A stretch of DNA of 23,559 bases from the IMG/VR virus record IMGVR_UViG_3300035698_010216, positions 1 through 23,559 of that record, one strand, 5' to 3'. The position numbers and the translations under genes were made by a program. The notes beneath the pieces are model-generated. The model saw only the letters and a program-made list of their open reading frames with translations, ran no database searches and had not been told where the DNA came from. This document shows positions 7,760 to 23,163 of the stretch, one piece after another. Source of the stretch: a virus. Each line of letters starts with the position of its first letter. Positions within the stretch are counted from its first letter, which is position 1.

Positions 7760-7766
7760 TTTTGTT

Positions 7767-7907: not shown

Positions 7908-7908
7908 T

Positions 7909-8918: not shown

Positions 8919-8928
8919 TTCTTTATAA

Positions 8929-9084: not shown

Positions 9085-9085
9085 G

Positions 9086-9244
9086 CTATCTTAGTTTAGC
9101 TTTTAGTGCATCTAGCTTTTTATTAGCTATTTTAAAATCGCACTGACCGTTAGAGCAAATAGTAAGGTTCTCGTCTTCGCCGTTAGGCATTAGCTTATGT
9201 TTGCACTTTGGGCATTGGTCTTTTTTTAAGTTTGTCCAATTCAT
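9086..9244 (-). CDS. Mini zinc-ribbon protein, 52 aa
   Basis: The 52-aa product has CPKC (11-14) and C30/C35 in ICSNGQCDF, a simple four-cysteine ribbon like those at the ends of RNA polymerase-binding or ribosomal proteins, then a basic helix (KIANKKLDALKAKLR). Its start overlaps the stop of the upstream gene as ATGA, which supports translation. Function unknown. Confidence 0.6.
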   Translation of the reverse strand: MNWTNLKKDQCPKCKHKLMPNGEDENLTICSNGQCDFKIANKKLDALKAKLR

Positions 9245-10148: not shown

Positions 10149-11010
10149 TTAACCTTTCGTCAATTTGTTTAAGTAATTTGTCTTTGTCGTCCTGGCTATA
10201 CTTTTTAGAACCCTCTATTTTTTCTTTTAGCTCGGGTAGTTTTTCAGCAGGTAATTTGCCTATGGCATTGGTAGCTTTATCAAGCATAGTTTCGGCTGGC
10301 TTATCGTCAACCTTTTCTAATTCCTCGGGTGCATATAAACCGCTTAGCAATTTAGGGAAGCCCTTGCGTAATGCCAGTGCTTCGGCACACTTACCAATTT
10401 GCCCCTTAGGCATTTTTTTCCACATAAAAGCCATTTTATCTGCTGGGCAATATTCAACCCAGTGGGCTGTCGCTGTGAAAGGGTAGCGTTCCCCGTTTTC
10501 CATTAGTTTGTAAACAGTGACGGTAGCTTTTATTGGCAGCTTAGTGTTCTCGTCCATTTCAATTATTGGATCATCACTACCAGCATATTGACCGCCACCC
10601 TCAGCAATAGCCCGGAAGCCGTCAATGCCTACCTGTATTTGCCCAACTTCCTTGCCCTGTTTGCTGTCCCAACGCTTTACAAAATGAACCTGGCGTAAAA
10701 ACGGATTGAGTCTAGCACCAACGCAAACATTTAAAAAGAGCTTCAATTCATCATCGGTAGCACCTTTGGCTAGCGTTGACTTTATAAGCTCTATTTGTGG
10801 CTTGGTCATTTTCTTGAAAGCGTCCTCAGCATCATTGCTAGTTAGGTGTTTCTCGACTATTTGTATAGCCTGCTTTTTCTCTTTAACTTCTTTTGCTGGC
10901 TTCTCTTCTTTGACCTTGCCTGGTTTCTCTTTTTTTTTAGCGACTGGTTTTTCCCCGTCTTTTTTCTTTGGTGCGGAACCAATCATTGTGTTTTTTGTGT
11001 TGTCTTGCAT
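10135..11010 (-). CDS. RecT/Bet-type single-strand annealing protein
   Basis: The 291-aa product has a lysine/proline-rich flexible N-terminus (about 1-48), then a Bet/RecT core: LNPFLRQVHFVKRWD, GKEVGQIQVGIDGFRAIAEG, and KKMPKGQIGKCAEALALRKG then FPKLLSGLYAPEEL. This order is diagnostic for the Bet/RecT family, which coats single strands and anneals complementary ends. It is paired with the PD-(D/E)XK exonuclease downstream (overlap 14 bp) and an SSB upstream. The extra basic N-terminus, not usual in short family members, may bind DNA or a partner. Confidence 0.85.
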   Translation of the reverse strand: MQDNTKNTMIGSAPKKKDGEKPVAKKKEKPGKVKEEKPAKEVKEKKQAIQIVEKHLTSNDAEDAFKKMTKPQIELIKSTLAKGATDDELKLFLNVCVGARLNPFLRQVHFVKRWDSKQGKEVGQIQVGIDGFRAIAEGGGQYAGSDDPIIEMDENTKLPIKATVTVYKLMENGERYPFTATAHWVEYCPADKMAFMWKKMPKGQIGKCAEALALRKGFPKLLSGLYAPEELEKVDDKPAETMLDKATNAIGKLPAEKLPELKEKIEGSKKYSQDDKDKLLKQIDERLNANT

Positions 11011-11035
11011 AAGATTTTTTATTTAAACTAATAAA

Positions 11036-11311
11036 CTATTTTTTACCAAAAACGGCATAGGGCGACGTGTGTTCCGCCAAACCTGCTTTTGGTTTTACAA
11101 AATATACTACTTCGCTTTTCTTTACTAGGGCATAAACATCGACCTTACTTGGCAGTACACTTGGTTTTTCACTGCCTATTTTTACCCTGTGTTTGTTGTC
11201 AACCAAAATGTCGTATGGCACATCAATGTCTGACACGTCCCTTACGCTATAACCAAACTTCCAAAGTTTGTTTTTAACGACTTGTATTAAGTTTTTGTCT
11301 GCTTTTTCCAT
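11036..11311 (-). CDS. Unknown protein, 91 aa; possible PD-(D/E)XK-like fold
   Basis: The start is set at 11311 (MEKADKNL), six bases after a TATAAT; an ATG 18 bp further upstream lies in the promoter itself. The protein reads as a helix, then PYDILVDNKHRVKIG (D34 and K44 could be the remains of a D...xxK site) and a later YALVKKSEVVYFVKPK strand pair. This resembles very small restriction-endonuclease-like folds, but key residues are incomplete, so activity is uncertain. It is the first gene after early promoter copy 2 and lies just before the recombination genes. Confidence 0.4.
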   Translation of the reverse strand: MEKADKNLIQVVKNKLWKFGYSVRDVSDIDVPYDILVDNKHRVKIGSEKPSVLPSKVDVYALVKKSEVVYFVKPKAGLAEHTSPYAVFGKK

Positions 11312-11317
11312 GGTTGT

Positions 11318-11346
11318 ATTATATATCATTTCTAATTATTTAGCAA
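11318..11346 (-). promoter_or_regulatory. Early promoter, copy 2 (24-bp conserved core, leaderless)
   Basis: TTGCTA (11346-11341), 17-bp spacer, TATAAT (11323-11318), then six bases (ACAACC) and the ATG of the 91-aa gene. The core 11326-11349 is identical to the other two copies. TTGTCCACA, one mismatch from a DnaA box, lies 8 bp upstream of the -35 at 11363-11355, inside the end of the preceding gene. Confidence 0.75.
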
Positions 11347-11349
11347 TAC
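11326..11349 (-). repeat. 24-bp promoter-core repeat, copy 2 of 3
   Basis: Identical over 24 bp to 6404-6427 and 15912-15935, same orientation; contains the dyad CTAA-N4-TTAG at 11332-11343. Confidence 0.85.
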
Positions 11350-11350
11350 C

Positions 11351-11629
11351 CTACTGTGGACAATATGCCCCTGGGTACCCGCCGGCTTTTGCCTTGGCTA
11401 AAACTGCTTTTAAAAATTCGTGGGCTTCTGCAAAGGTTTTAAATTCGCCGTAATCAACGGGCATGTCTTGCCAGGTATAAACCTGCACGTCAATATAGTC
11501 CATTTCTGTGGTTTTTTCTTTAAAGGTTGCTTCTACTTCATGCAACCATTTGTGTGCATGGTACCACCAAAAATTTATGCGGTGCCTGGGTGCCTTGCCG
11601 TCTGCTCTGTAAACAACTAGGTCTATCAT
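11351..11629 (-). CDS. Unknown protein, 92 aa
   Basis: A compact alpha/beta protein rich in aromatic residues (INFWWYHAHKWLHEVEATF near residues 18-36, then YIDVQVYTWQDMPVDYGEF). It ends with an alanine/lysine helix (FAEAHEFLKAVLAKAKAGG). The stop codon lies 5 bp from the conserved promoter core of the next unit. It overlaps the upstream gene by 4 bp. No family recognised; no catalytic motif seen. Confidence 0.45.
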   Translation of the reverse strand: MIDLVVYRADGKAPRHRINFWWYHAHKWLHEVEATFKEKTTEMDYIDVQVYTWQDMPVDYGEFKTFAEAHEFLKAVLAKAKAGGYPGAYCPQ

Positions 11630-11919
11630 AACCGGTCTTCCAGCTTCTTTAAAATACTGTCCTGTATTTGCTTTTTAATAATAACTTTATCGTCCCTGGT
11701 TAGCCTATATTTTTTATAGTCCTTTAGTGGGAGTGGAAAAAGAATATTAAGTTTACCAAACCTAGTTTTTACCCAGCTAATTAAATAAGCTAGGTTAACT
11801 TTTTCTTTGCTAGTACCAAAACGTTTAGCCATTTGGTCGGGGCTTAGCCTTTCCTCGGCTAACACCTTGTAGTCAAAAACATTCTTGGGGTATTTATTTA
11901 TTCTTTGTTTTCTAAACAT
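11626..11919 (-). CDS. Helix-turn-helix-like protein, 97 aa
   Basis: The segment YKVLAEERLSPDQMAKRFGT then SKEKVNLAYLISWVKTRFGK has the spacing of a helix-turn-helix domain, with basic flanks, so a small DNA-binding regulator is possible. The C-terminal half (LTRDDKVIIKKQIQDSILKK) is likely a long helix. It overlaps both neighbours (8 bp upstream, 4 bp downstream). It could be an early regulator acting on the repeated promoter dyad, but nothing shows this directly. Confidence 0.35.
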   Translation of the reverse strand: MFRKQRINKYPKNVFDYKVLAEERLSPDQMAKRFGTSKEKVNLAYLISWVKTRFGKLNILFPLPLKDYKKYRLTRDDKVIIKKQIQDSILKKLEDRL

Positions 11920-12214
11920 CTTTTTTTTCGTTAAGGGCTTTGCCGTCTGCTATACCCATTTTATAAACTTCGTCCAGCTTCCCGCTATATAGTTCAAAAA
12001 CCTTAGCCAGCATTTTAGCTAGATCACCCCGGCGTTCTTTTATCTCGGGGCAAAACTCATGCACAATTTCTGCTAGCCTGTCTTCTAACAATATGCCTGT
12101 GCCGTTGCATTTATCGCATAGCTCTAGGTCTTCACGCTTCACGTTGTCCTGTTTAATTTTACCTAGTCCGCCACACTCACCACACTGCCTAATTTGGTTT
12201 AACATTGTTTGCAT
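11912..12214 (-). CDS. DnaJ-type zinc-finger protein, 100 aa
   Basis: Two CxxCxGxG-like repeats are present: CGECGGLG (11-18) and CDKCNGTG (33-40), the same pair of knuckles as in the DnaJ cysteine-rich domain, here as one zinc site. The C-terminal 60 residues are helical (EDRLAEIVHEFCPEIKER, LAKMLAKVFELYSGKLDEVY). No J domain is present. Stand-alone proteins of this kind are common in phages; they may bind proteins or nucleic acids. It overlaps the helix-turn-helix-like gene by 8 bp. Confidence 0.55.
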   Translation of the reverse strand: MQTMLNQIRQCGECGGLGKIKQDNVKREDLELCDKCNGTGILLEDRLAEIVHEFCPEIKERRGDLAKMLAKVFELYSGKLDEVYKMGIADGKALNEKKDV

Positions 12215-12224
12215 AAAATTTATA

Positions 12225-12302
12225 TTAAAGTTTTAAATCTTCTATTGCCTGTTCCTGCTCTTCATCGCTACCAAAATCAGTTATAGGTTCTTTGTCTGAC
12301 AT
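12225..12302 (-). CDS. 25-aa acidic peptide in frame behind the SSB stop codon
   Basis: After the TAA of the ssb gene (12320-12318) the same frame continues through ACA GAC CCC GAA CCA to an ATG at 12302 and 24 more codons (MSDKEPITDFGSDEEQEQAI, then EDLKL) to a TAA. The peptide is strongly acidic with a hydrophobic end, which is the character of an SSB C-terminal tail. It may be a separate peptide, a tail added by read-through, or the remains of a longer SSB. Confidence 0.4.
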   Translation of the reverse strand: MSDKEPITDFGSDEEQEQAIEDLKL

Positions 12303-12317
12303 TGGTTCGGGGTCTGT

Positions 12318-12665
12318 TTACTGCCCTTGGTTAGCCCTGGCCTTACGCCCAAACTCAAATTTTTCAGCAACCACCTCTGTGCTATAACGTTTACTGCCGT
12401 CAGGTGCGTCCCAACTTCTATTATTTATGCGACCCTGTATATAAACCTCGTCGCCTTTGTTCATGTATTTAACCATAACTTCTGCCATTGAGCCAAACGC
12501 TACTACCTTATGAAACGTTGACGGCTTTTCTACTTCGCCACTAGGGGTTTTATAGCTTCGGTTCGTGACTAAAGTTATATTAGTTAAAACATTCCCACTT
12601 GGTAAACTTACCAGTTCCGGCTTGGCTGTTAGCCTGCCACAAATTTGTACTAAATTTAAATCCAT
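12318..12665 (-). CDS. ssb: Single-stranded DNA-binding protein (OB fold)
   Basis: The 115-aa protein is a clear bacterial-type SSB: LVQICGRLTAKPELVSLPSG, a strand LTNITLVTNRSYK, FHKVVAFGSMAEVMVKYMNK and GDEVYIQGRINNRSW, then YSTEVVAEKFEFGRK. It protects single-stranded DNA during replication and recombination. It is shorter than the usual 140-180 aa, ending right after the OB fold with no acidic tip; an acidic stretch of the expected type lies in frame after its stop (12225-12317). It is placed with the RecT/Bet and exonuclease genes. Confidence 0.88.
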   Translation of the reverse strand: MDLNLVQICGRLTAKPELVSLPSGNVLTNITLVTNRSYKTPSGEVEKPSTFHKVVAFGSMAEVMVKYMNKGDEVYIQGRINNRSWDAPDGSKRYSTEVVAEKFEFGRKARANQGQ

Positions 12666-12676
12666 TTTATTTGTTT

Positions 12677-13834
12677 TTAATTTTTTATATATTTTAAAAT
12701 GTGTTTTATTACTTCGACTGTCCAGCCATTGCCAAGTGCTTTATATCTTTGGGGGTTTGATATTCCCTCAGTATAATTGTCCGGCAATGTTTGTAGTCGT
12801 TCACATTCAATAGGTGTTAGCTTTCTAATATAGCCCTCAACTAATATGCCATGCTTATCTTGCCCGGTTAAAGTATAAAATTTATTTCCCTCTGAAAATC
12901 TTTGACCTCTTTGTCTTTGGTCAACCCTGTCGGGAGTTAAACAGCCAAATAATAAATGGTTATTTTGCTCCCATGAATTAGCAGATATAGTTGGCGACTT
13001 CTTACCATTATTTCTTAGCCCACCTTTATTATTTCCTCTTTTCTTATTGACTACCCCTAACAAATATTGTCCCATTTTGGCAGCACCACCGCCAGCCTCA
13101 CCGGTTAATGTAATAGCTTTGTCATGAATATAATAAACCCTATTTGCCTGGCTATCTTTTCTGAAATAACCAACCTTTCCCCTCTGCACTTCTTTATCTA
13201 AAATTTTTAGTGTTTTGTCAAAAGGCACAACATAGTCTTCTAAATCTTTCATTCCCATGTTGTCAAGGTTTTCGTGAATAATATCTTTTAACATTATCCC
13301 CCTGTCTTTTGGCAAATCTATAACTGGTATGTTAGTCCAATAAAGCCGTTTTCTATTTTGAGCCGAAACAATATTGCTGTTTAGAATTATTGGTTTAACG
13401 CCCAGGTGTTCGCTTATTATATCTTGAAACTCTTGCTTCATTTTTACATTTTCCAATAAAAAGTATTTTGGTTTTACTTCTTTTAATACCCGTACAAACT
13501 CAAAGAATAATGCTGATCGTGGGTCATTAAAGTTTAACTGCTTACCAGCAAAGCTAAAGCCCTGGCATGGGCTACCGCCTATAAGCAAGTCAATATCTTT
13601 AACTTCAAAAACTGGTTTATGCCCACTACCATAAAATAGGTATGGTTCTTTGTAGCTAATATTTTTAACGTCGCCAAGTTGCTTGGTGCCTGGGTAATTT
13701 CTATTTGTAATTTCAATAGCATGTTTATCTATTTCGCTGGCGTAATATTCTACGTCATAACCCAAACTATTTAGGGCTACCTGCCCGCAACTTATTCCGT
13801 CAAATAAACTCAATACTTTTATTTTCTTTTCCAT
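12677..13834 (-). CDS. DNA (cytosine-5) methyltransferase
   Basis: All key motifs of the Dcm/HaeIII-type family can be read in the 385 residues: FDGISCGQ (11-18, SAM binding), GGSPCQGFS (86-94, catalytic Cys90), LLENVKM with E128-N-V, QNRKRLYWTNI, and near the end LTPIECERLQTLPDNYT and ALGNGWTVEVI. It methylates cytosine in a short target set by the variable region (about 190-300). No restriction enzyme partner is encoded beside it, so it is probably an orphan that protects phage DNA, complementing the Mom-like protein. It is complete, and lies 11 bp upstream of ssb. Confidence 0.9.
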   Translation of the reverse strand: MEKKIKVLSLFDGISCGQVALNSLGYDVEYYASEIDKHAIEITNRNYPGTKQLGDVKNISYKEPYLFYGSGHKPVFEVKDIDLLIGGSPCQGFSFAGKQLNFNDPRSALFFEFVRVLKEVKPKYFLLENVKMKQEFQDIISEHLGVKPIILNSNIVSAQNRKRLYWTNIPVIDLPKDRGIMLKDIIHENLDNMGMKDLEDYVVPFDKTLKILDKEVQRGKVGYFRKDSQANRVYYIHDKAITLTGEAGGGAAKMGQYLLGVVNKKRGNNKGGLRNNGKKSPTISANSWEQNNHLLFGCLTPDRVDQRQRGQRFSEGNKFYTLTGQDKHGILVEGYIRKLTPIECERLQTLPDNYTEGISNPQRYKALGNGWTVEVIKHILKYIKN

Positions 13835-13840
13835 AATTAT

Positions 13841-14398
13841 TTATTCTAAAAATTCTACTTTAACCCTTATAAGCCCTAGGCTTGGTTCAGCCAGCATGCC
13901 AAAAGCATAACTGCTTAAATCTATAATTCTGCTTTTATCGGCAGGGCCATAGTCATTGACTAGGCAGGTTATAGCTTTATAAAAATATGGGTGGAATAGC
14001 CCGTCAGCTTCTAGTGGTTGCGGGTAGCTTACTTTTAATACTGACCCCCTGGGATAGTCCCTGGAAGCACACGTAGTTGCCACCTGGCTATGGCACGGCT
14101 CGTTTTCCTCTAAACAGCGTTGGTCGCTAGTTCTAAGGTCATAGTCGTACCAGCTAGCTAAACCCTCACCTGGCTCATTTTTGGGCTCCTGGGGGGCTGG
14201 TTTAGGCAATACGTCAATGCCCCAGTGGTCGCATTGTTGCTTTTGCCATTCTAGCAGGTAGAAGCTAGGGTAAATTTGAGCCTGGTTCTGCCAGTTATAA
14301 CATTCTTTTTTTTCTTGCCGGTTAGCTGAATAGCTAATAGCATGAATAAATAATGCCACAGCACCAACTATCAATACAATTTTTAAAAATGTTTTCAT
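13841..14398 (-). CDS. RlpA-like double-psi beta-barrel protein with N-terminal membrane anchor
   Basis: The 185-aa protein begins with a membrane or signal segment (about residues 5-24, LKIVLIVGAVALFIHAISYS), has a proline-rich linker (PKPAPQEPKNEPGEG), then a barrel like that of RlpA: GLASWYDYD, TCASRDYPRGSVLKV, and AITCLVNDYGPADKSRIIDL then SSYAFGML. RlpA family proteins bind or cut denuded peptidoglycan glycan strands. The NDxGP and RIIDLS motifs, including the conserved Asp pair, are kept. Extra cysteines suggest disulfides outside the cell. It lies in the early operon, away from the lysis genes. Confidence 0.72.
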   Translation of the reverse strand: MKTFLKIVLIVGAVALFIHAISYSANRQEKKECYNWQNQAQIYPSFYLLEWQKQQCDHWGIDVLPKPAPQEPKNEPGEGLASWYDYDLRTSDQRCLEENEPCHSQVATTCASRDYPRGSVLKVSYPQPLEADGLFHPYFYKAITCLVNDYGPADKSRIIDLSSYAFGMLAEPSLGLIRVKVEFLE

Positions 14399-14643
14399 TT
14401 TTGTTTTAGTAATTTTATTAAATTGAATACGCCACGTCCTTTTTGACCAGTCTTTTGGTTATAAAACTTTCCGGTGCTTGGCCAAAAATCAAACGTACCT
14501 ACTCTATAATGCCGTGAACCGGCATTTAAAACTTTTACTTCTATGCCCTTGGCTTTCAGTATGGCTAGCGAGTTCTTTTCATTGCTAGCTTTTTTTGCCT
14601 GGCTTTCCTCGTGCATTGTTTCCCACATGTCAGCATCAGACAT
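14395..14643 (-). CDS. Unknown conserved-looking phage protein, 82 aa
   Basis: A charged N-terminal half with a helix (residues about 5-34) is followed by a compact beta region: VKVLNAGSRHYRVGTFDFWP, then STGKFYNQKTGQKGRGVFNL and IKLLKQK. The pattern YRVG.FDFWP.TGKFYN...G.KGRGVFNLI resembles small proteins seen in many phages, but I cannot attach a function. It overlaps the RlpA-like gene by 4 bp (ATGA) and its start is preceded by an AT-rich AAATAT-ATG. Confidence 0.55.
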   Translation of the reverse strand: MSDADMWETMHEESQAKKASNEKNSLAILKAKGIEVKVLNAGSRHYRVGTFDFWPSTGKFYNQKTGQKGRGVFNLIKLLKQK

Positions 14644-14647
14644 ATAT

Positions 14648-14734
14648 TTATTTCGCTATTACTTGAATTATATAACCAATAATTGCTATGGCTAATAAAT
14701 CTAAATAAGAAAATCTTTTGTCTGTTATTAGCAT
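14648..14734 (-). CDS. 28-aa single-span membrane peptide
   Basis: A short frame between two longer genes codes MLITDKRFSYLDLLAIAIIG followed by YIIQVIAK: a charged start and one membrane-spanning helix. It fits with 4 bp of space on each side, which is the main support. Function unknown; tiny membrane peptides of early phage regions may alter the host membrane. Confidence 0.4.
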   Translation of the reverse strand: MLITDKRFSYLDLLAIAIIGYIIQVIAK

Positions 14735-14738
14735 ATAA

Positions 14739-15335
14739 TTATTTTACAGCTATTGTGGTTTCCTCTTTGACTACCACACCTGGAATTTCCACGCCGGCTA
14801 GGGCAACCTTTCTAACTTTTACTTCGTCGACCACCCAATACTCGTGTGGTATTTTTTCACGATCAACAATTTCCACCTTTTTAATTTTCTTTTGTTGCAC
14901 CTGGCTAGTGCCGGTGTCAACAGTTTTTTTGGTGTCGCCTAGGTCGTCTAATTTCTTTACGGCTGTTTCCTCTTTTATGGTTCCCTTTTCAGCACGCTTG
15001 GCAATTTTATCTTCTTTTTCTTGGCGTACTCTTTCAACCTCAGTCATGTAGATATTTACTTTTGACTTTAGACTTGCTTCTGCTTCATTGCAGGCTTTCT
15101 TAAACGGTAGAAATTTTGCCCTGGCATTGTTTATAATTTCCTGGGCAGGTTTGGTAAACTTTTCTTTTTCTGCTTTCACAAATTTGCCTAGCACCTTAAT
15201 ATTTTTTATAGTGTCGGCTACCTTGCTTAGGTCTTTCTCACTTTCTATTTTGGTATTTTCGACGGTTTCGTTCATACCAAAAACTTTTTTTTCGACTACG
15301 GAAATATCCATAGTAGTGTTTTCTACTTCACCCAT
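14739..15335 (-). CDS. Coiled-coil phage protein, 198 aa, unknown function
   Basis: The middle (about 30-125) is a long, lysine/glutamate-rich coiled coil, including FVKAEKEKFTKPAQEIINNA and a heptad-like MTEVERVRQEKEDKIAKR. The end is compact: IPHEYWVVDEVKVRKVALAG then VEIPGVVVKEE. This coil plus the IPxEYxxxDExKVRK..LAGxEIPG ending is a layout I associate with early phage genes near recombination functions; the role is unknown. An alternative start is the ATG eight codons downstream (MDISVVEKK). No promoter or ribosome site is clear. Confidence 0.55.
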   Translation of the reverse strand: MGEVENTTMDISVVEKKVFGMNETVENTKIESEKDLSKVADTIKNIKVLGKFVKAEKEKFTKPAQEIINNARAKFLPFKKACNEAEASLKSKVNIYMTEVERVRQEKEDKIAKRAEKGTIKEETAVKKLDDLGDTKKTVDTGTSQVQQKKIKKVEIVDREKIPHEYWVVDEVKVRKVALAGVEIPGVVVKEETTIAVK

Positions 15336-15366
15336 AATTGTGTTGGTTAAAAAAACTAATTAAATA

Positions 15367-15654
15367 CTAATTTATTTCTGTGGCTTCACTTTCAGCCATT
15401 TCATTTTTGCATATATGGTTAACTACTTCTGTGCCACTGTCGATTGACAGGTACACTAGCCAGTTTTTATTTTCGTAGAGCTTGCGGGCTTCGGTGTCGC
15501 CTATGTTGCCGTGTTCTAAAATTGCTTTTTCTAATTCCTTTGTTTCTAGCTTGGTGTCAATTTTTGCACCAATTTGCCAGTTGTGGTAGTTAGCTAATAG
15601 TTCAAGGTTTTTTCTTGACCAATCACCTGTGAAATAATTTTTTGTAGCACACAT
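15367..15654 (-). CDS. Unknown protein, 95 aa
   Basis: Second gene of the first early unit. It begins MCATKNYFTGDWSRKNLELL and is mildly acidic, with alpha/beta character and no clear motif; the C-terminus (EMAESEATEIN) is acidic and probably disordered. Two cysteines are present but no zinc pattern. The start is preceded by ATAAATTT-ATG without a Shine-Dalgarno sequence. Confidence 0.4.
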   Translation of the reverse strand: MCATKNYFTGDWSRKNLELLANYHNWQIGAKIDTKLETKELEKAILEHGNIGDTEARKLYENKNWLVYLSIDSGTEVVNHICKNEMAESEATEIN

Positions 15655-15677
15655 AAATTTATTGTTATATTACTTAA

Positions 15678-15863
15678 TTAAAACTCTATTACTTGTATTC
15701 TTTTTGTTCTTGCAAATTTTTTTACTGCGTTTAGCCTAGCCCACACACCATTTTTTAATACTGACTTACCGGTATCACTCCAAGTTAATTTGCCAACCGG
15801 CACGCCGTTTTCGTCCTCACCCTCGTGTTTGAAATTGAAACAAACTTTTTTTCTTTTACACAT
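15678..15863 (-). CDS. Unknown small basic protein, 61 aa; first gene of the early unit
   Basis: The product starts MCKRKKVCFNFKHEGEDENG and ends FARTKRIQVIEF. It is basic, probably a small beta-rich domain (VPVGKLTWSDTGKSVL). It is the first gene after early promoter copy 3; the predicted transcript start is about 34 bases ahead, so unlike the other two copies this mRNA should have a short leader, with no Shine-Dalgarno sequence. As the first early product it may act on the host, but no function can be read. Confidence 0.45.
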   Translation of the reverse strand: MCKRKKVCFNFKHEGEDENGVPVGKLTWSDTGKSVLKNGVWARLNAVKKFARTKRIQVIEF

Positions 15864-15903
15864 AAATTTTATCTTTAATTGTTAGCTAATAAGTTATACA
15901 TAT

Positions 15904-15932
15904 ATTATAATTCATTTCTAATTATTTAGCAA
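15904..15932 (-). promoter_or_regulatory. Early promoter, copy 3 (24-bp conserved core)
   Basis: TTGCTA (15932-15927), 17-bp spacer and TATAAT (15909-15904). The predicted start is near 15897, giving a leader of about 34 bases before the ATG at 15863. A perfect DnaA box TTATCCACA lies 9 bp upstream of the -35 (15950-15942). It probably drives the whole early operon. Confidence 0.78.
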
Positions 15933-15935
15933 TAC
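15912..15935 (-). repeat. 24-bp promoter-core repeat, copy 3 of 3
   Basis: Identical to 6404-6427 and 11326-11349; dyad CTAA-N4-TTAG at 15918-15929. Confidence 0.85.
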
Positions 15936-16110
15936 TCTAATTGTGGATAACTATTTATAAAAAAAACATATATTAGTAGTCTATGTCGTAATCTCTGATA
16001 ATGATAGACTGCACATTACCGCCAATCCAGTTGGGCGGATATGTGCAACTGGTTGCACTATTCAGCCAATCTAAAGCTATTTATACACTACTTATAAACA
16101 GAATTGCCAC
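15936..16110. other. Intergenic region with inverted repeats and a DnaA box; candidate origin/control region
   Basis: Within the 340 bp between the early and lysis genes no gene is credible. The part 15936-16110 has a perfect DnaA box (TGTGGATAA, 15942-15950), an AT-rich tract (about 15951-15976), and three inverted repeats: AGTCTAT/ATAGACT (15978-15984 and 16004-16010), CCGCCAA/TTGGGCGG (16020-16038), and GTGCAAC-TG-GTTGCAC (16043-16058). A DnaA box next to an AT-rich tract and dyads is the usual make-up of a replication origin, and the last dyad has the form of a repressor operator. Both roles are inferred. Confidence 0.35.
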
Positions 16111-16138
16111 AATAAAAAGAAGCGGTTTTACCCGCTTC
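16111..16138 (-). terminator. Rho-independent terminator after the lysis genes
   Basis: On the minus strand GAAGCGG (16138-16132) pairs with CCGCTTC (16125-16119) around a six-base loop, followed by TTTTTATT (16118-16111). It ends late transcription coming from the tail and lysis genes before the early promoter region. Confidence 0.8.
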
Positions 16139-16187
16139 CTTTCAACTCCTCACGAAGTAAGTAGTCAACTCCAACACACAGCCGACT
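16111..16187 (-). ncRNA. Candidate short RNA of about 77 bases
   Basis: An extended -10 (TGCTATAAT, minus strand 16202-16194) just after the holin stop predicts transcription from about 16187 to the terminator at 16111. The predicted RNA has two GGAGTTGA repeats and a small stem (CTTAC/GTGAG) before the terminator hairpin. It could instead be only the 3' end of the late mRNA. Confidence 0.3.
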
Positions 16188-16193
16188 TATTTT

Positions 16194-16202
16194 ATTATAG
16201 CA
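16194..16202 (-). promoter_or_regulatory. Extended -10 element after the holin gene
   Basis: TGCTATAAT on the minus strand matches the extended -10 consensus TGnTATAAT; the -35 position (TACCAT) is poor. The same bases form one arm of an inverted repeat TAGCAG/CTGCTA spanning the holin stop, so part of the match may have another cause. Confidence 0.35.
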
Positions 16203-16203
16203 G

Positions 16204-16476
16204 TTATTTGCCTGCTATGGTAGTCTTGCCGAATTCCCAAAGACCAACTCCGCCAAGTCCTAAAATTACGCCTACTATGCCACCAAGCACAGATAGCTGT
16301 ATGACTATTAGGCCAACCGCCAACCCGATAAGTACAGAGGTTAAAGGTAGAAATCTTGCAGGAACTCTAACAGCCTGCTTTAGCACTTCGACTAAACCAA
16401 TTACTAGGGGCAATAGCCATGCAGATTTTATCAATACTTCTTGCAGTGTAATGATGTCGATAATTTCTTTTTCCAT
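16204..16476 (-). CDS. Holin
   Basis: The 90-aa protein has three likely membrane helices: about residues 12-32 (VLIKSAWLLPLVIGLVEVL), 42-62 (FLPLTSVLIGLAVGLIVIQL) and 66-84 (GIVGVILGLGGVGLWEF). The start is charged (MEKEIID) and the end is basic and short. Size and topology fit a class I-type holin, which opens the cytoplasmic membrane at a set time so that the lytic enzyme can reach the wall. It is the last gene before the late terminator and follows the cysteine peptidase gene and a 33-aa membrane peptide. Confidence 0.65.
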   Translation of the reverse strand: MEKEIIDIITLQEVLIKSAWLLPLVIGLVEVLKQAVRVPARFLPLTSVLIGLAVGLIVIQLSVLGGIVGVILGLGGVGLWEFGKTTIAGK

Positions 16477-16488
16477 TTCTTTTTATGG

Positions 16489-16590
16489 TTAATAATTTTT
16501 TATGTTATCTCTAAGTATTAGAGCTATATAATATATTACGTAGCCGGGCATCAATAAAATAGTAATTATTTTTTGCTGCCGACTATACAT
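16489..16590 (-). CDS. 33-aa membrane peptide of the lysis module
   Basis: The start overlaps the stop of the peptidase gene as TAATG. The product MYSRQQKIITILLMPGYVIY then YIALILRDNIKNY has a basic start, one membrane helix and a charged end. It sits between the probable lysin and holin, so an accessory holin or antiholin role is possible, but this is positional inference only. Confidence 0.5.
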   Translation of the reverse strand: MYSRQQKIITILLMPGYVIYYIALILRDNIKNY

Positions 16591-17816
16591 TATTTTATTT
16601 CAGCGTATTTAATTTTTTCCCAAAGGCTCTCGGGTATAGGTACTAGGTATTCGTTCTCTACGAAATAGCCGAATAGATCACACGGTCTACCATGCAAATA
16701 TTTAAAGCCTATAATTTTGCCGGTCTTATCTCTTATAATAAGATAGGCCTGACCCTTAGCACCTTTGTTTTTTTCTACTCGAATAAACATAACCGCAGTG
16801 TTGCCAACGTCTTTTGTTTTTCGACCATTCATAAATAGCAACTGTTTCAGTGCGACTTCTTTTTTAAACTCGTCCACTACGCCAATATTTTTAGCATCAA
16901 TAATTGTGTACCAATTAAAGTACATGCCACCTTTCAAGGTTTCCTCTTGGTGACCTAGCCAGCCGTTTGTTTTGTCCCGATCATTATAACCGTCGTAGCT
17001 ATCTTTAGACCATATAGTTAACCTGCCCTGTTCTAGAGTAATTTTGCCACCAAAGTAATTACAGTGGCCACCACTCTTAGGGCTATTAGTTAACCGGAAT
17101 ATATTTTTTAAAACATTTTTAAAGGACATGCCGTTTACATAGTAGCCACCTAAACAACCAAAATTTAAAATACTAATCTGTGCAATACGTTCTAGGTTCC
17201 TGCTAGTAATTTTAGCGTAGCCTTTAGCCTGGTACTCTTTAGCTTTTTTATAAACAGTTTCGTTTTCATGCTTCCTGTTTCGAGCAAAAGCACTGTCCAT
17301 ATCCGGGTGTTGTCTACCGTCGTCTGTTTTAAAATATCTATAGCTAGGCACGTCTTCCTCTAAAGCAAACCCGTCCTTAACTGCACTGATGCAGGCCCGT
17401 ACTATGTAGGTACCATAAGCCAAGGCATACTGCCAAAATTTAAAAATAGATGAAAGATCAACCCACTTGCCGGTTTCAATAAAGTTTAGCACCTGGCCAT
17501 AAAAAGCCTTAGCCTGCCAAACGCAGTTGTCCATGCCTATCTGATTTTTACTCGGGGTTATAAAACGGCCATTCTCGGTGGCCATAATTTCCTGGGCGTA
17601 GGCAATAGACCAAGTACGTGATCTAAACTTCTTTACACCAACACGCTGTATATAAGCCATAATTACCTCTATATCGAATACAACGCCGCCCCTGACCTTA
17701 GAATAGTCTATTTGCTGTTCAGCTAGCACAGAGCCCATTATAGCCTCTGCATCGTAGTTTCTAGGGTCTTGTACGCTTTCTAGTTCCGGCACGCAGCCGT
17801 GGTTTCTATTTTTCAT
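16590..17816 (-). CDS. Papain-like (C1 family) cysteine peptidase, probable lysis or entry enzyme
   Basis: The 408-aa protein has the layout of C1A peptidases: GMDNCVWQAKAFYGQVL with candidate nucleophile Cys98 (compare QG.CVxQA), a long helical section, SGGHCNYFGG with candidate His251, and IWSKDSYDGY at 268-277 where papains have NSWG. The catalytic Asn is therefore replaced by Lys or Asp. The C-terminal 110 residues are a separate beta-rich domain (GKIIGFKYLHGRPCDLFGYF) that may bind the cell surface. It precedes the membrane peptide and holin and is the only candidate for an endolysin in the window, so it may cut wall peptides or S-layer protein. A tail-associated entry role is the alternative. 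Confidence 0.65.
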   Translation of the reverse strand: MKNRNHGCVPELESVQDPRNYDAEAIMGSVLAEQQIDYSKVRGGVVFDIEVIMAYIQRVGVKKFRSRTWSIAYAQEIMATENGRFITPSKNQIGMDNCVWQAKAFYGQVLNFIETGKWVDLSSIFKFWQYALAYGTYIVRACISAVKDGFALEEDVPSYRYFKTDDGRQHPDMDSAFARNRKHENETVYKKAKEYQAKGYAKITSRNLERIAQISILNFGCLGGYYVNGMSFKNVLKNIFRLTNSPKSGGHCNYFGGKITLEQGRLTIWSKDSYDGYNDRDKTNGWLGHQEETLKGGMYFNWYTIIDAKNIGVVDEFKKEVALKQLLFMNGRKTKDVGNTAVMFIRVEKNKGAKGQAYLIIRDKTGKIIGFKYLHGRPCDLFGYFVENEYLVPIPESLWEKIKYAEIK

Positions 17817-17918
17817 ATATGTGTTGTTAATTTTAGTAAGTAGAGGGGGGAGTGTTTATAGCACACTGTTTTGTATATGCTCTCCCCCTTTTCCCCAGCA
17901 ACGGGGGCAACTAAAGAA
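17817..17918 (-). other. Intergenic region with a long G/C-rich inverted repeat
   Basis: GGGGGAG and CTCCCCC (plus-strand arms near 17845-17852 and 17880-17887) enclose about 28 bases that include AGCA/TGCT. A second stem, CCCC/GGGG, follows at about 17892-17907. No U-tract follows on the coding strand, so this is more likely a processing or attenuation element ahead of the peptidase gene than a strong terminator. Confidence 0.35.
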
Positions 17919-18227
17919 CTATGTTTTTTTCGGTATTCGTTCGTCAATTATTGTTTCTAATTTTCCTATATGAACTGTCAAATTATTTATAGCCTGCATA
18001 TTAGATTTTATACTTTCGTCCTGGGTGTGCATGTGGTTGGTTGCCTGTTGGATAAGTTCTAAATTTTGTTTAGTAGCTGCGTCTAGTTGGCTTTTTAATA
18101 AATCCATTGCACCCTTTTGTTTTTGGTCGGCCAATTCTGATTTTGCACCCTGTTTAAAAAAGACCTTATATGCTGTCAGTAGCATAGCAGCTAGAGTGAA
18201 TACTTGTAATGCTACTGATAAGTCCAT
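17919..18227 (-). CDS. Single-span membrane protein with coiled coil, 102 aa
   Basis: An N-terminal membrane helix (about residues 5-24, VALQVFTLAAMLLTAYKVFF) is followed by a lysine-rich turn and a long amphipathic coiled coil (about 35-95, LLKSQLDAATKQNLELIQQA then KSNMQAINNLTVHIGKLETI). Similar layouts occur in small phage holin-accessory or XhlA-like lysis proteins and in envelope-spanning proteins. It lies between the fibre genes and the peptidase gene, so a lysis role is possible. No family motif was found. Confidence 0.5.
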   Translation of the reverse strand: MDLSVALQVFTLAAMLLTAYKVFFKQGAKSELADQKQKGAMDLLKSQLDAATKQNLELIQQATNHMHTQDESIKSNMQAINNLTVHIGKLETIIDERIPKKT

Positions 18228-18231
18228 GGTT

Positions 18232-18924
18232 TTATCTATAAAAATTAGCTGTACCGGCTACGCTAGTCGTACCATCGCCGGAGTGGGATAGTGTTATTGT
18301 ATTGCCACTCCAAGAAGCACTAAGCTGAGTGTGTTGTAATGACCAAGCGTTAAAATAAAGGGTCACACTTGTTGCTCCAATTTTAGCTAGCGTGACTTGG
18401 CCACCAAGACTGTAGCCACCCATACCACCACCAGTTAATTGAATTATAGCAAATCTTGCTCCGGCTGGTGCTGTGATAGCATCGGCGGTGTCTGAAACAC
18501 TGCCCATATATTCCCACTTACCTTTTTGTATTAAAATTTGTGTAGCAGAAACAGCATAGCCTACTAAAACTTCGTAGGTACCCATTGAGTGGCCTATTGT
18601 TCCGTCATCTTGTACGTAGCAAGGGTCGCCAATAGTAAGCCCTGTGAAGCCACCAACCACGCCAGTTTTTTGTACTTGTATAGGATTGCCATTTGTACTA
18701 CTACTTATAGCAAAGCCAAGAAATTCTAGCTTTGTTAGAACGTTGGCATCACACGCCATCCATTCATTCTCAGTCGCATCTATATAAACAGGTACCGGCA
18801 AAGTGGCTCCGGCTATTGTTTCGCCGGCATTTAGATCAACTATAAAACCTAAATTACGTAGCAGGTTCATTTCTGTATAACCTACTTCCTCGTCGTCTAC
18901 TTTATTTTCTGGTATTATTCCCAT
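18232..18924 (-). CDS. Probable tail-tip or fibre protein, 230 aa
   Basis: The protein is glycine/serine/threonine-rich and almost all beta. The N-terminal part (1-130: GETIAGATLPVPVYIDATEN, GGFTGLTIGDPCYVQDDGTI, YEVLVGYAVSATQILIQKG) resembles the surface repeats of tail fibres, in which GLT.G..YYv.dDG.. is common. The C-terminal 80 residues are a beta domain (ITAPAGARFAIIQLTGGGMG, LQHTQLSASWSGNTITLSHS) that may bind a receptor. It lies last in the tail module, a usual place for receptor-binding proteins. A TATAAA six bases before the ATG may be chance. Confidence 0.6.
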   Translation of the reverse strand: MGIIPENKVDDEEVGYTEMNLLRNLGFIVDLNAGETIAGATLPVPVYIDATENEWMACDANVLTKLEFLGFAISSSTNGNPIQVQKTGVVGGFTGLTIGDPCYVQDDGTIGHSMGTYEVLVGYAVSATQILIQKGKWEYMGSVSDTADAITAPAGARFAIIQLTGGGMGGYSLGGQVTLAKIGATSVTLYFNAWSLQHTQLSASWSGNTITLSHSGDGTTSVAGTANFYR

Positions 18925-18931
18925 ATATTTT

Positions 18932-19438
18932 TTATACTGGTGTGAACGTTATTACAAAGTCTAGTGTTAATTTTTGTACGGCAGTTTTTGTAATATCAAT
19001 ATTTACATGGCTAACTAAAATGCCGGTGTCTGCTCCTGCGGATCCGTCGCTAACTATGCCAGCTTCCTTGTAGGTGCCGTCTGTTTCTGTTTGAGAAAAG
19101 AAGCCAGTACCATAAAGAATATTAGCCGCACTGGTTTTAGATTGTATAGTATTTCTATAAACCTCGGTGCCTAGCGTAGTGTCGTTTTCGGTCACGACCG
19201 TAGCATTACTGCCAAGTAAGCAGTGAGTTAAAAGCATAGCGTTGTCCGGGGTGGGGTCAGCAAAGTTATTACAAACCATGCCTAAGCCAGTCAAAGGCAC
19301 CACATTATAGAAATATTTTATCTCTTTTTTTCCGGTGTTCACGTCTTCCAACGTAGCACGCCAAACACCATAAGCCCCAACCTTGTCTTTATTGACTGCA
19401 CAGTGATGCTTTAATTTGTCTAATAAGTCTTTGTCCAT
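18932..19438 (-). CDS. Probable tail fibre or baseplate protein, 168 aa
   Basis: A beta-rich protein: DKVGAYGVWRATLEDVNTGK, then KEIKYFYNVVPLTGLGMVCN near residues 37-56 and MLLTHCLLGSNATVVTENDT later. The pattern of a lead strand, NVVVPLTGL..., a gapped LLGS segment and TL.T....R..I strands is often seen in phage baseplate or tail-tip proteins that carry receptor-binding parts. It sits between the tail hub gene and the 230-aa fibre gene. The start follows an extended -10 (TGTTATAAT) by six bases, so it may also be made from its own leaderless transcript. Confidence 0.6.
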   Translation of the reverse strand: MDKDLLDKLKHHCAVNKDKVGAYGVWRATLEDVNTGKKEIKYFYNVVPLTGLGMVCNNFADPTPDNAMLLTHCLLGSNATVVTENDTTLGTEVYRNTIQSKTSAANILYGTGFFSQTETDGTYKEAGIVSDGSAGADTGILVSHVNIDITKTAVQKLTLDFVITFTPV

Positions 19439-19444
19439 ATATTT

Positions 19445-19453
19445 ATTATAACA
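19445..19453 (-). promoter_or_regulatory. Extended -10 promoter within the tail module (leaderless architecture)
   Basis: The minus strand reads TGTTATAAT, then six bases (AAATAT) and the ATG at 19438. No -35 is recognisable at 17 bp. The identical spacing to four other genes argues for a real internal promoter for the fibre genes. Confidence 0.5.
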
Positions 19454-19459
19454 TTTATT

Positions 19460-20977
19460 TTAAAAGTTTGATAGCTTGCCTCTGCCGGTACGGAAAACAC
19501 GACGTAAGTCAACACCAACGTCAGGTATCTTAGGGCCTAAAACATAAACAATATCGCCTGACGGAAAGGTAGTTGTTAATGCATCGCCTACCTCTACTTC
19601 GTCTTCCTGCAAATAATCGTCAGTGTTTATATTTACTACATCGCCTACGTTCACTTTGTCCCTAGGGTAAACTACGTGATGCAGTTGGGTGTCGGTGTCT
19701 TCTTGTATAAGTCTATCGCCCTCTCGCAGTGCTGCTATTAAAAAGTCAACAATGCCTATTGTCCGCAGGGTGGCTAATTTTACTTTCCACATATAGCGGG
19801 TAGGGCTAACCATTGTGTAGGTAGCTGACTGTATTATAAAATTTTCGTTAACATCAAGTAGTGTAGAATTTATATTGATTATTTGACCTGACCTTAGCCC
19901 AGGAGTGTAGGTTGTAAATTCGCCCTCTATAACGCCGTCCTCGTATGCTTCTAATTGGGCCTGGGCAAAATCAATGGCTTGATCACGGCTAACTAGCTTT
20001 TTGTCTATCTTGGCAAACTCGAACAAACCATATTGGGCAATAGAAGTTTCCTCAGATATTCTAACTTCCAGGGTAAAAAGTGGTATTGCTTCTACGGTTA
20101 TATTATTAGCCCCGCTTTGGTCTGACGGTACGGTGGTTGTTTTAAAACGTAATGACTGTGCTTGAAAATTCCAGAAGCAGTCGTAGTCTTCCTCTTTGCT
20201 TAAAAAATCAACGCCAACGTCTTGGGCTACGCTATCAACTATAACAGTCGGTAGGTTTGCAAATTTATTAGACAGTGGAAATTGCAAACGTTCCCCGTCG
20301 CCAGCTAGGTACTCTAGCCTTTCGTCGTCACCCTCAATTTCGCCACCGGTAATATAAACCCGGTTTCTTATTTGTGATAAATCATTTTCAATTTCTAGGG
20401 TGTCGAAAATAAAGTTATCGCTAGTATCGGTTAAATTAAAAGGTGCTAATTCTGTATTTTTTTCAAAGAAATGTACGTCCTTATTATAGTCAACGTACCA
20501 AACAAAATTGGTTAAATCAGATAATCTTTGTATTGCTTCTACTAGAGGCACACGTTTAAAAACAATTTTGCTAACCGGTATTATACATACAACATTAGTG
20601 CCTGTGAAACTTCCGTCGGTAAAATTAGTAAGTAGATCTGCAATAATTGCCCCAACAGTCATGTCTTCGTATTGTGCCTGGACTAATTGCCTGTTTAGAT
20701 CATAGGAATAATCCCTACACTTCACTGTATATAAAACCGAACTATTGCCGGTAGCTTCTTTACTAACAGAATAAATTTTGCCGCCAAATTCTCTTGTTCC
20801 GTCAATAGTTAAAATAACCTCGCTGTTTGACTCCGGCCTAAATGTTTGGCCTGCATGGTATATAATCTGGAACCGTAGGTCGTCTGCGAGGTAGTTTGCT
20901 TCGTCCTTTTTTTTAAGGCTTCTGCTTTTTATAATGCTGGTTTTATCAGCACCACCTATTGTTAAAACTACACTCAT
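19460..20977 (-). CDS. Tail hub/baseplate protein (Tal or gp27-like)
   Basis: The 505-aa protein follows the tape measure gene with an ATGA overlap, the usual place for a tail hub. It begins VVLTIGGADKTSIIKSRSLK and has a beta-barrel-type start, then CRDYSYDLNRQLVQAQYEDM and TVGAIIADLLTNFTDG, which is typical of the phage late-control (gpD/gp27-like) hub domain, and DLTNFVWYVDYNKDVHFFEK. The C-terminal part is acidic beta (DKVNVGDVVNINTDDYLQED). It probably caps the tail tube and carries the fibres. No peptidase motif is clear. No separate distal tail gene lies between this gene and the tape measure gene. Confidence 0.75.
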   Translation of the reverse strand: MSVVLTIGGADKTSIIKSRSLKKKDEANYLADDLRFQIIYHAGQTFRPESNSEVILTIDGTREFGGKIYSVSKEATGNSSVLYTVKCRDYSYDLNRQLVQAQYEDMTVGAIIADLLTNFTDGSFTGTNVVCIIPVSKIVFKRVPLVEAIQRLSDLTNFVWYVDYNKDVHFFEKNTELAPFNLTDTSDNFIFDTLEIENDLSQIRNRVYITGGEIEGDDERLEYLAGDGERLQFPLSNKFANLPTVIVDSVAQDVGVDFLSKEEDYDCFWNFQAQSLRFKTTTVPSDQSGANNITVEAIPLFTLEVRISEETSIAQYGLFEFAKIDKKLVSRDQAIDFAQAQLEAYEDGVIEGEFTTYTPGLRSGQIININSTLLDVNENFIIQSATYTMVSPTRYMWKVKLATLRTIGIVDFLIAALREGDRLIQEDTDTQLHHVVYPRDKVNVGDVVNINTDDYLQEDEVEVGDALTTTFPSGDIVYVLGPKIPDVGVDLRRVFRTGRGKLSNF

Positions 20978-22671
20978 AATCTTATATTTGATTTTACTAC
21001 TTTCATAATGTCGTTGCCTATTTGTTCAGCTATTCCCTCTTCGCCAACAAAGTTATTACCGGTAATAGTAATATTTAAACTAGCCCCGCCACCTAGCCCC
21101 GCCATTACTCGACCATGACTAGCTGGTGTAAATAATTCAGGGCCATGTTCGCCAACAAGCATTGTTCTGCCTGCCTGGACTGCACCACCGGCAGCACGTC
21201 CAAACCAGCCCCCTACGGTGCCTGCTACGCTACTGATAGCGTTTCTAGCACCCTGTACAACGTTTAGTCTTTTTATAGCATCAATTAAGGCTTGTATTTT
21301 TTCAACTACCCAGTTAACAATGTCGCCAAACTTTTGAAATGAACTAACCCAAAAGTCAGTGACGGCAGAGGAAAGGGCAGCACCGGCAGTAATTACCAGT
21401 GAAAGTAAGCTAGCTATTATTCTTATAGCTGTTATAGCTGCATATATAGCCCCCAGCAAAACAACACCAATAGCTTTAGCTAAAAATTCTAGCACCGGCA
21501 ATAGTGGTGTCATGCTATCCCACAAATCTTTTAAGGCTGGTAATACCTGACTTACCCATAGGTCGTTTAAATCTTCCCACAGTTCAGTTAGCATAGATAT
21601 AAGCCCTGTTTTTTCCTCGATGCTTTGCATGAAATTGCCCCAGTCTATTTGTGCCTTACTTAATATAATGCCCAGGGCGACTATGGCGGCGGCAACAATG
21701 CCAAAAGGGCCTGCCAATAAAGACACGCCTGTTATGATCGCCGGAAGTACCATACCTAATAAACCTATGCCAGCTATTAGTCCGGTTAGTGCGGCGGCGA
21801 CAAGAATTATATTTTTAGTAAGCTCGGGGTGTTTTTCAATCCAAGCTGCTATTTTTTCTATTATTGGTAGTAATTTTTTTAACAACTGGTCAAACATAGG
21901 AAGCAACAACGTACCTATTCGTTCTTTGGTTTCCAGTATGGTAGCGTTTAGCTCTTGCTGCCTACGAATAAAAGAGTCGTTATTTTCCTCAAAGCCCTCT
22001 ATTGCATCAGAGGAATTGTCAATTATTTGTGCTAGTAATGCCTGGGCTCTTATTTGCGTTTTTACTTCGGGGTCTAAATCTTTAAAGGCCTGGCCAGTTT
22101 CTAGTAGCCCCTCTTTCAATGCCCTGGCTTCTAGTGAAGTTTCCAGTGCATTTACACCATAACGCCGTAGTGGCTCGCTAGAGCCTGACAAGCCCGATTT
22201 TATAGCTTCTAGCACCTGTGTAGGGTCAACGTCGTTAAAGGCTGCGATTTTGTTTGAAACGTCCAGGAAGCCCTTAGACATATCTGCGGCCAGTTCACGT
22301 GATAAGCCAAGCGGTACCATTAAGTCTTGTAGGTCGGCAGCCATGCGTACAATTTCAGAAGTGGCAGTCGGCATTTCTTTTCTAATATCATTTACGAAAT
22401 TTAACATGTCGTCAGAGTGTTCCCCGAATACAGTATTAAATTTGTTATAAGCACCCTCGGCAATAGCTACCTGGCTTATTGCCCCTTTTACACCAACGGC
22501 TATGCCGGCAAAAGCAGCACCACCAAATAGTGCCATTTTTTGAAAAGCAGGCTGCATTTTTTGCAGCTTGGTTTTCATAGTGTCAAGGTTTTGTCGAACA
22601 CCATTAAAAGCGGCATTTGCTCTATTTTCCGCTTCTATAACAACTTGTAATTTGTGCGTAGTCTGTGGCAT
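20974..22671 (-). CDS. Tape measure protein
   Basis: The 565-aa protein has the make-up of a tail length ruler: a helical N-terminal half (MPQTTHKLQVVIEAENRANA, then LSRELAADMSKGFLDVSNKI), several hydrophobic segments in the middle (ILVAAALTGLIAGIGLLGMV; LLGAIYAAITAIRIIASLLS), and an end typical of the family, VGEHGPELFTPASHGRVMAG followed by LNITITGNNFVG. At roughly 0.15 nm per residue it predicts a tail of about 85 nm. It follows the tail chaperone frameshift gene by 1 bp and precedes the hub gene. The membrane segments may form a channel on DNA injection. Confidence 0.9.
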   Translation of the reverse strand: MPQTTHKLQVVIEAENRANAAFNGVRQNLDTMKTKLQKMQPAFQKMALFGGAAFAGIAVGVKGAISQVAIAEGAYNKFNTVFGEHSDDMLNFVNDIRKEMPTATSEIVRMAADLQDLMVPLGLSRELAADMSKGFLDVSNKIAAFNDVDPTQVLEAIKSGLSGSSEPLRRYGVNALETSLEARALKEGLLETGQAFKDLDPEVKTQIRAQALLAQIIDNSSDAIEGFEENNDSFIRRQQELNATILETKERIGTLLLPMFDQLLKKLLPIIEKIAAWIEKHPELTKNIILVAAALTGLIAGIGLLGMVLPAIITGVSLLAGPFGIVAAAIVALGIILSKAQIDWGNFMQSIEEKTGLISMLTELWEDLNDLWVSQVLPALKDLWDSMTPLLPVLEFLAKAIGVVLLGAIYAAITAIRIIASLLSLVITAGAALSSAVTDFWVSSFQKFGDIVNWVVEKIQALIDAIKRLNVVQGARNAISSVAGTVGGWFGRAAGGAVQAGRTMLVGEHGPELFTPASHGRVMAGLGGGASLNITITGNNFVGEEGIAEQIGNDIMKVVKSNIRL

Positions 22672-22672
22672 G

Positions 22673-23145
22673 TTATTTTTTTTGTTTACTTAAATCGTCA
22701 ATGACCTGTACGGTTTGTTTGACGAACCACTCAGGCTGAGCCATGAAAGTGTGGTAATCCCAGCCCATAGACATGCAAACTAAGACTACGGTTTGACCGG
22801 AGTATCCCCGGCACCTAGAACTTTTTTTTTACGAAGTTTTTTAATTTCGTCTTGTATAAATTGATAGTCTTCCTCAGGCAAGCCTAAAATATCTTTTAAT
22901 ACATTATCAGTTTTTTCATTCATAGAAACAATAAACTTTTCTATTTCTCTGTGGGCCTGCTCTGTTATAGCACTTGCTACATTCATTTTGCCAAAGTTTG
23001 CACTGCCTCGTTGGTCAGGTTTTACGTCAACTGCACTCATAAGTGCATCGTCAATGTATTCGGCATCTTCGCCAGTGATCCAGTCTTTAATTTCCACTAC
23101 TGCCTTGGCAGCCGGGGTTGTGATTTTTTTTGTTGGAGCTTTCAT
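22673..23145 (-). CDS. Tail assembly chaperone GT fusion made by -1 ribosomal frameshift
   Basis: The 119-aa chaperone frame contains an A9 run (22830-22822, reading CGT AAA AAA AAA GTT). Slipping back one base on it continues as AGT TCT AGG... for 49 codons to a TAA at 22675-22673, two bases before the tape measure ATG. The new part contains MGWDYHTFMAQPEWFVKQTV, the type of segment found in the GT extension of tail chaperones. The fusion would be 157 aa. G and GT proteins coat the tape measure protein during tail assembly and their ratio is set by the frameshift, as in lambda. No separate ATG-started gene explains this open frame. Confidence 0.8.
22786..23145 (-). CDS. Tail assembly chaperone (G-type, unshifted product)
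   Basis: The 119-aa unshifted product lies between the tail tube and tape measure genes, exactly where lambda G-type chaperones are found. It begins MKAPTKKITTPAAKAVVEIK and has an acidic, helical middle (NEKTDNVLKDILGLPEEDYQ) and a lysine-rich slippery region (KKLRKKKVL) at residues 101-110. The short tail after the slip site (GAGDTPVKP) ends with TAG. It is made in excess over the frameshifted form in related phages. Confidence 0.78.
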   Translation of the reverse strand: MKAPTKKITTPAAKAVVEIKDWITGEDAEYIDDALMSAVDVKPDQRGSANFGKMNVASAITEQAHREIEKFIVSMNEKTDNVLKDILGLPEEDYQFIQDEIKKLRKKKVLGAGDTPVKP

Positions 23146-23163
23146 TTTTTTTTATTAAATTTA

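Follow-up and report, generated by a model that had tools for sequence, protein, structure and literature searches.

The domains with which endolysins attack the sugars, amide links or peptides of the wall form a small repertoire, and the cellular C1A enzymes so far known are proteases. Among the lysins with Cys-His catalysis, the CHAP, NlpC/P60 and Amidase_5 endolysins are holin-dependent wall enzymes with a papain-like topology (PMC10318531, PMC8586454), but they belong to other families of the same superfamily than the protein described here. Comparable by role is PeiR of the Methanobrevibacter prophage phi-mru, a peptide-cutting endoisopeptidase of a prophage lysis module that has been shown to be lytic to cells (PMC2812497); its host is an archaeon with pseudomurein, and the comparison is one of role and implies no sequence relation. 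C1A-like genes have also been deposited from phages. Tsac_2838 of Thermoanaerobacterium phage THSA-485A (PHROG 16701) lies in the stretch following the tail genes, as here, but it has kept the catalytic Asn and adjoins a GH25 muramidase, so that the C1A protein is not the sole lysin of that phage; PHROGs files family 16701 under 'peptidase, other' and not under lysis. UOF78884.1 of Caudoviricetes sp. ctPCi537 (MW202577), deposited as 'hypothetical protein', is C1-like with Gln-Cys-His-Asp and is followed by a 67-aa product and the lyZ1 gene; unlike our protein, it carries a PG_binding_1 tail. In the freely accessible journal literature, we found no earlier description of a C1A/papain endolysin or of a Patescibacteria/Saccharibacteria phage lysin of that type. 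A holin-exported cysteine endolysin is already known as a kind, and it is the catalytic family that appears to be new for that role.

The locus under study lies in a 23,559-bp IMG/VR record, the whole of which we refer to as the window. An earlier note had proposed a lysis module here, comprising a papain-like peptidase, a 33-aa membrane peptide and a holin; the three ORFs are indeed present at 16204-17816 (minus strand), with the holin matching phrog_1299. The features that matter for the argument are as follows.

13841..14398, minus strand: membrane-anchored DPBB_1 (lytic-transglycosylase fold) protein (PF03330 'Lytic transglycolase', 34.6 bits vs. a cutoff of 28.8)
16204..16476, minus strand: holin, 90 aa (phrog_1299 holin, E 2e-10; Pfam Phage_holin_5_1 under cutoff)
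16489..16590, minus strand: 33-aa peptide with one hydrophobic segment (by hydropathy)
16590..17816, minus strand: papain-like (C1A) protein of 408 aa, proposed endolysin (profile of relatives; slot exchange with amidases)
17001..17003, minus strand: codon of Asp272, which takes the position of the catalytic Asn (Asn in most relatives)
17064..17066, minus strand: codon of His251 (His in 26 of 27 aligned rows)
17523..17525, minus strand: codon of Cys98, the nucleophile (Cys in 26 of 27 aligned rows)
17541..17543, minus strand: codon of Gln92, the papain oxyanion-hole Gln (Gln in 26 of 27 aligned rows)
17919..18227, minus strand: 102-aa membrane and coiled-coil protein (consistently next to the slot; relatives at the same place)
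18232..18924, minus strand: 230-aa probable tail protein (by position; relatives have a counterpart between hub and slot)
18932..19438, minus strand: 168-aa conserved tail-region protein (phrog_18500, E 8e-9, function unknown; homologues after the hub)
19460..20977, minus strand: tail hub protein, the marker for the slot in relatives (YQBQ-like Pfam match above cutoff; phrog_400 tail protein)

The window is part of a larger genome that can be read throughout. A second record (IMGVR_UViG_3300031227_000178), 36,904 bp long and circularly permuted, is identical to the window over the common parts; window positions 1-9495 are its first 9,495 bases, reversed, positions 9510-23559 are its opposite end and 14 window bases join both ends, which puts the genome size at ~36.9 kb. 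Outside the window, this genome (gene models being simple ORF calls) encodes a terminase, a portal-MuF fusion, an S78 prohead protease, an HK97-type capsid protein, connectors and a tail tube. Between its capsid and connector genes we also noticed a 933-aa protein with DITKxLxYxV repeats (L005:17584-18500, continued in L006; G001:17584-20385), for which a weak CwsA match was the sole family match.

Taken alone, the 408-aa protein has no convincing match in Pfam, PHROG or PDB, and single-sequence searches (Pfam, PHROGs, PDB, named phages and IMG/VR) returned only its own phage. The Pfam model PF00112 (Peptidase_C1) fails to match it while matching 10 of 27 aligned relatives, so the C1A assignment depends on the relatives. 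A profile built from 16 of them, with the window protein excluded, scored this protein at 113 bits vs. 5.7 bits for the best of 1000 shuffles; compared with the PDB, the family profile hit a bacterial cysteine protease (3ois) best, at E 9.5e-24, as well as cathepsin K at ~1e-19 and many cathepsins and papain. Additional C1 relatives were gathered by a C1 alignment scan. The likeness to C1A (papain, cathepsins; PF00112; nearest PDB chain 3OIS) thus consists of the profile match and of Gln, Cys and His in register, with differences in the Asp for Asn, the setting in a phage lysis module and the fusion of relatives to peptidoglycan-binding domains. We also considered a CHAP or NlpC identity and dropped it for lack of a profile match, as the protein matched none of the CHAP, NlpC-P60 and Amidase_5 models (PF05257, PF00877, PF05382) in Pfam up to E = 1.

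The active site had been read from the sequence as Cys98 and His251 without the usual Asn, with 'KD' in its place. This is right, and the alignment places the change more exactly as Asn to Asp272, with Gln92, Cys98 and His251 in register with the catalytic residues of papain. One could take Asp272 as a sign that the protein is degenerate and inactive, being kept for wall binding while the DPBB_1 protein serves as the working lysin; a truly degenerate paralogue does exist, in that a second C1-like gene right after an intact one (L196:5793-6824) has lost all of its catalytic residues (Asn, Ala, Ala and Gln instead) and is perhaps a binding-only paralogue. We regard such decay of the window protein as highly improbable, given that 1) Gln92, Cys98 and His251 are retained at 20-30% identity; 2) seven other relatives with intact Gln-Cys-His have Asp (L074, L154, L146, L180), Glu (L142, L148) or Ser (L092) at the Asn position, and the metagenomic GenBank phage MW202577 likewise has Asp; and 3) a survey of papain-like triads lists Asn, Gln, Asp or Glu as the third residue (PMC10318531). 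With these relatives and this survey in hand, loss of the Asn by itself is no argument for inactivity.

A search with the portal protein yielded 35 related loci, and in six of the nine genomes examined (G004, G006, G007, G008, G010, G012) a papain-like protein is encoded between the tail genes and the gene of a small membrane protein, so that the order proposed for the window does recur in other phages; the same slot holds a CHAP/NlpC-like protein in G013 and a C39-like protein in G003. A tblastn-type search of 19 portal-matched relatives with the peptidase found nothing, and the kinship is therefore visible by position and profile only. Profiles of the tail hub added 103 viral loci (some contigs repeated) and 31 loci in bacterial genomes. 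By labels from phmmer and profiles, and in counts that are not dereplicated, the slot holds a C1 protein at 29 loci (a few of these labels, L114 and L123 among them, being weak) and a standard type at 35 (Amidase_2 13, M23 12, C39-like 5, CHAP 3, M15 2); its content is unrecognised at 70 loci, many of them cut by contig ends. Pfam confirmed Amidase_2 in L063, L065, L179 and L172 (E 1e-18 to 1e-22) and M23 in L178. One locus (L166) was dropped from the C1 set and relabelled, its protein comprising M23 and PG_binding.

Close pairs of genomes show the exchange directly. Between L070 and L065, identity is 95% for the protein that precedes the slot and 70% for the small holin-like one that follows, with the slot itself encoding a 319-aa C1 protein in L070 and a 160-aa Amidase_2 in L065. 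The C1/Amidase_2 exchange is seen again between L070 and L063, and once more between two Nomurabacteria prophages (L180 vs. L179), where the flanking proteins are 81% and 89% identical. Both the C1 protein of L070 and the amidase of L063 are stand-alone, and an early DPBB/3D-type gene is kept in both genomes; as this gene stays, the C1 protein seems to assume the job of the amidase itself. On a tree of the tail hub, the slot type was altered at least 16 times (by a quick method and with some weak labels), 10 switches to or from C1 being forced on the starred branches, and the window falls within a supported set of 12 comprising 7 C1 and 5 amidase loci. Judging from these gene contents, the turnover and the swaps match what an endolysin locus would do.

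The same comparisons bear on whether the C1 protein might instead be a virion or tail protein, acting in entry or in maturation of the tail fibre and lying beside the holin by chance. Phages can have wall enzymes in the tail, and the C1 gene does come after tail-fibre-like genes. We nonetheless find this very unlikely, because the slot is swapped with Amidase_2, M23, C39-like and CHAP genes, C1 domains are fused to cell-wall domains, and the order of membrane coiled-coil protein, enzyme and holin stays constant alongside differing tail fibres.

The fusions are found among 25 aligned slot proteins, of which 11 match PG_binding_1, 8 Peptidase_C1 and 3 M23 (one of the last, L166, being without a C1 domain), with single proteins matching M15 families, VanY or DUF5675. 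The window protein has no recognised wall-binding domain. In L189, C1 (E 7.5e-10) and M23 (E 2.6e-16) are on one polypeptide, and in both L189 and L219 a CHAP-like protein is encoded separately beside the C1 protein. A 608-aa protein in L046 (G006:26376-28202; also at L105:11024-12850) joins C1, PG_binding and an M15/VanY domain to a hydrophobic holin-like tail, and is possibly an endolysin and a holin in a single chain.

Together, the exchange of the slot with standard hydrolases, the fusions to peptidoglycan-binding and hydrolase domains and the place of the gene, with tail genes on one side and the holin on the other, make an endolysin the most likely role for the C1 protein, and the proposal of a lysis module centred on a papain-like cysteine peptidase gains support from these relatives. 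On this comparative evidence we consider it likely, with fairly high confidence, that the 408-aa C1A protein is the endolysin of this phage, exported by the holin and cutting a peptide bond in the host wall. Export by the holin would follow from the protein having no strong membrane or signal segment (maximal 19-residue hydropathy of 1.24 in a simple hydropathy count). We surmise that the protein would build up in the cytoplasm and would cross the membrane once the holin opens it, whereupon the Cys98-His251-Asp272 triad would hydrolyse a cell-wall peptide bond, most likely in the stem or cross-link peptide of peptidoglycan, and the cell would burst. The holin is probably tuned or assisted by two small products, the 33-aa peptide and the 102-aa membrane protein. 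The start of the former overlaps the stop of the peptidase gene, and membrane peptides of 47 aa (L070) and 51 aa (L065) are found at its place in relatives; it is perhaps a holin helper. The 102-aa protein (17919..18227) gave a weak match to Rz-like spanins (E 0.05).

We then have to account for any other wall enzymes of the genome. In a Pfam scan covering every predicted protein of at least 100 aa in the whole ~36.9-kb genome, no standard endolysin was found and DPBB_1 was the only peptidoglycan-hydrolase family. The earlier note had held that the window contains no muramidase, amidase or glycosidase and that a standard endolysin elsewhere in the genome would speak against a peptidase lysin; it had missed the DPBB_1 protein at 13841-14398, was right in that Pfam detects no other peptidoglycan-hydrolase family, and the rest of the genome has now been checked with none found. 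The DPBB_1 gene (13841..14398) is situated in the early region, and its product is a possible second wall enzyme as predicted from its Pfam match. That it is the sole true endolysin is unlikely because of this early position and because a related gene occurs in a genome that carries a normal amidase too. A Pfam search for DPBB_1 in 19 portal-matched relatives found none, and direct comparison with relatives showed that they share the N-terminal membrane part of the protein. In the window phage, the DPBB domain (13841-14398) is joined to a short membrane module (ECxxW...WQxxQC) that, in relatives, is free-standing near lysozyme/SLT-like genes (L059:1638-1865, L052:4522-4755 and L049:3769-4011, the last on the minus strand).

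The C1A enzymes being proteases, a surface protein could be the true target, with the C1 protein cutting outer-surface proteins (S-layer or wall-anchored) and another enzyme, e.g. the DPBB_1 protein at 13841-14398, cutting peptidoglycan. The presence of that DPBB_1 gene in the window, the GH25 muramidase beside the THSA-485A gene and the separate CHAP-like neighbours in L189 and L219 would all fit such a division of labor. Even so, the replacement of an amidase by a C1 protein between L070 and L063, with the DPBB/3D-type gene in both, and the peptidoglycan-binding domain on many C1 proteins lead us to view a surface-protein target as unlikely, although less remote than a role in the virion. 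That a stand-alone C1 protein replaces an amidase while the DPBB/3D-type gene stays favours peptidoglycan as the target, and a peptidoglycan peptide would be the likelier substrate of the C1 endolysin than a surface protein.

With respect to the host, the hub matches in bacterial genomes were mostly to MAGs of Patescibacteria (MAG labels as given), a large bacterial group whose members are very small and difficult to culture; related hubs were found too in one gammaproteobacterium, one alphaproteobacterium and Bacillota. C1 cassettes adjoining bacterial or integrase genes are located on contigs of Nomurabacteria, Taylorbacteria and other Patescibacteria, in regions that resemble prophages (L167, L180, L185, L189), and the C1 profile gave no further match at E 1e-5 in the genomes of these four. 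A draw of 380 Patescibacteria genomes contained 4 C1 matches, namely the L180 and L167 genomes and two others in phage-like cassettes, and a search of 199 Bacillota genomes, run with no positive control, contained none. Shine-Dalgarno-like motifs precede 1 of 42 gene starts in the window phage (background 7.6%); they are nearly absent from the Patescibacteria prophages L167, L179, L180 and L185 and are used in the Bacillota phage regions L191 and L221. The gammaproteobacterial prophage L165 is without them too, so the scarcity of the motif is a hint only. From the relatives, we lean towards a Patescibacterium as the host, with some reserve. As an observation on gene starts, TATAAT stands exactly 6 bases before the ATG of five window genes (starts 858, 2379, 6389, 11311 and 19438, minus strand), whose transcripts would then be leaderless.

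In a wider sense, C1A-like enzymes may represent a widespread and unnamed catalytic class of endolysins in many Patescibacteria phages, freely exchanged with amidases and metallopeptidases, the first of their family known to act on peptidoglycan and with recurrent change of Asn to Asp or Glu; for this broader proposition we find the balance to be even. If these are true lysins, they would form a new catalytic class that is now annotated as 'hypothetical' or 'peptidase' and would be candidate tools for Patescibacteria, and the C1-for-amidase swap pairs of close genomes put the question within reach of a direct test.

Several other parts of the window deserve mention. A gene cluster of the modification type at 1133-5494 (minus strand) encodes a Mom DNA-modification protein (PF25680, E 4e-51) together with a ParB-like protein (recognized by eye), a glycosyltransferase, a cytidylyltransferase, a weak LicD match and a methyltransferase, and is possibly a DNA- or surface-modification cluster. 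A 153-aa membrane-anchored protein at 7298-7759 (minus strand), with no Pfam match, combines a Cys (NNCYDQSQAL) with a His (HAFLMPW) in a pattern that, by eye, recalls transglutaminase-like or papain-like enzymes. Lastly, a 41-base repeat occurs three times (6387-6427, 11309-11349 and 15895-15935) and reads, on the minus strand, TTGCTA, 17 bases and TATAAT; in the first two copies the ATG 6 bases past TATAAT is codon 7 of the called ORFs, and the repeat is apparently a common early promoter or operator.
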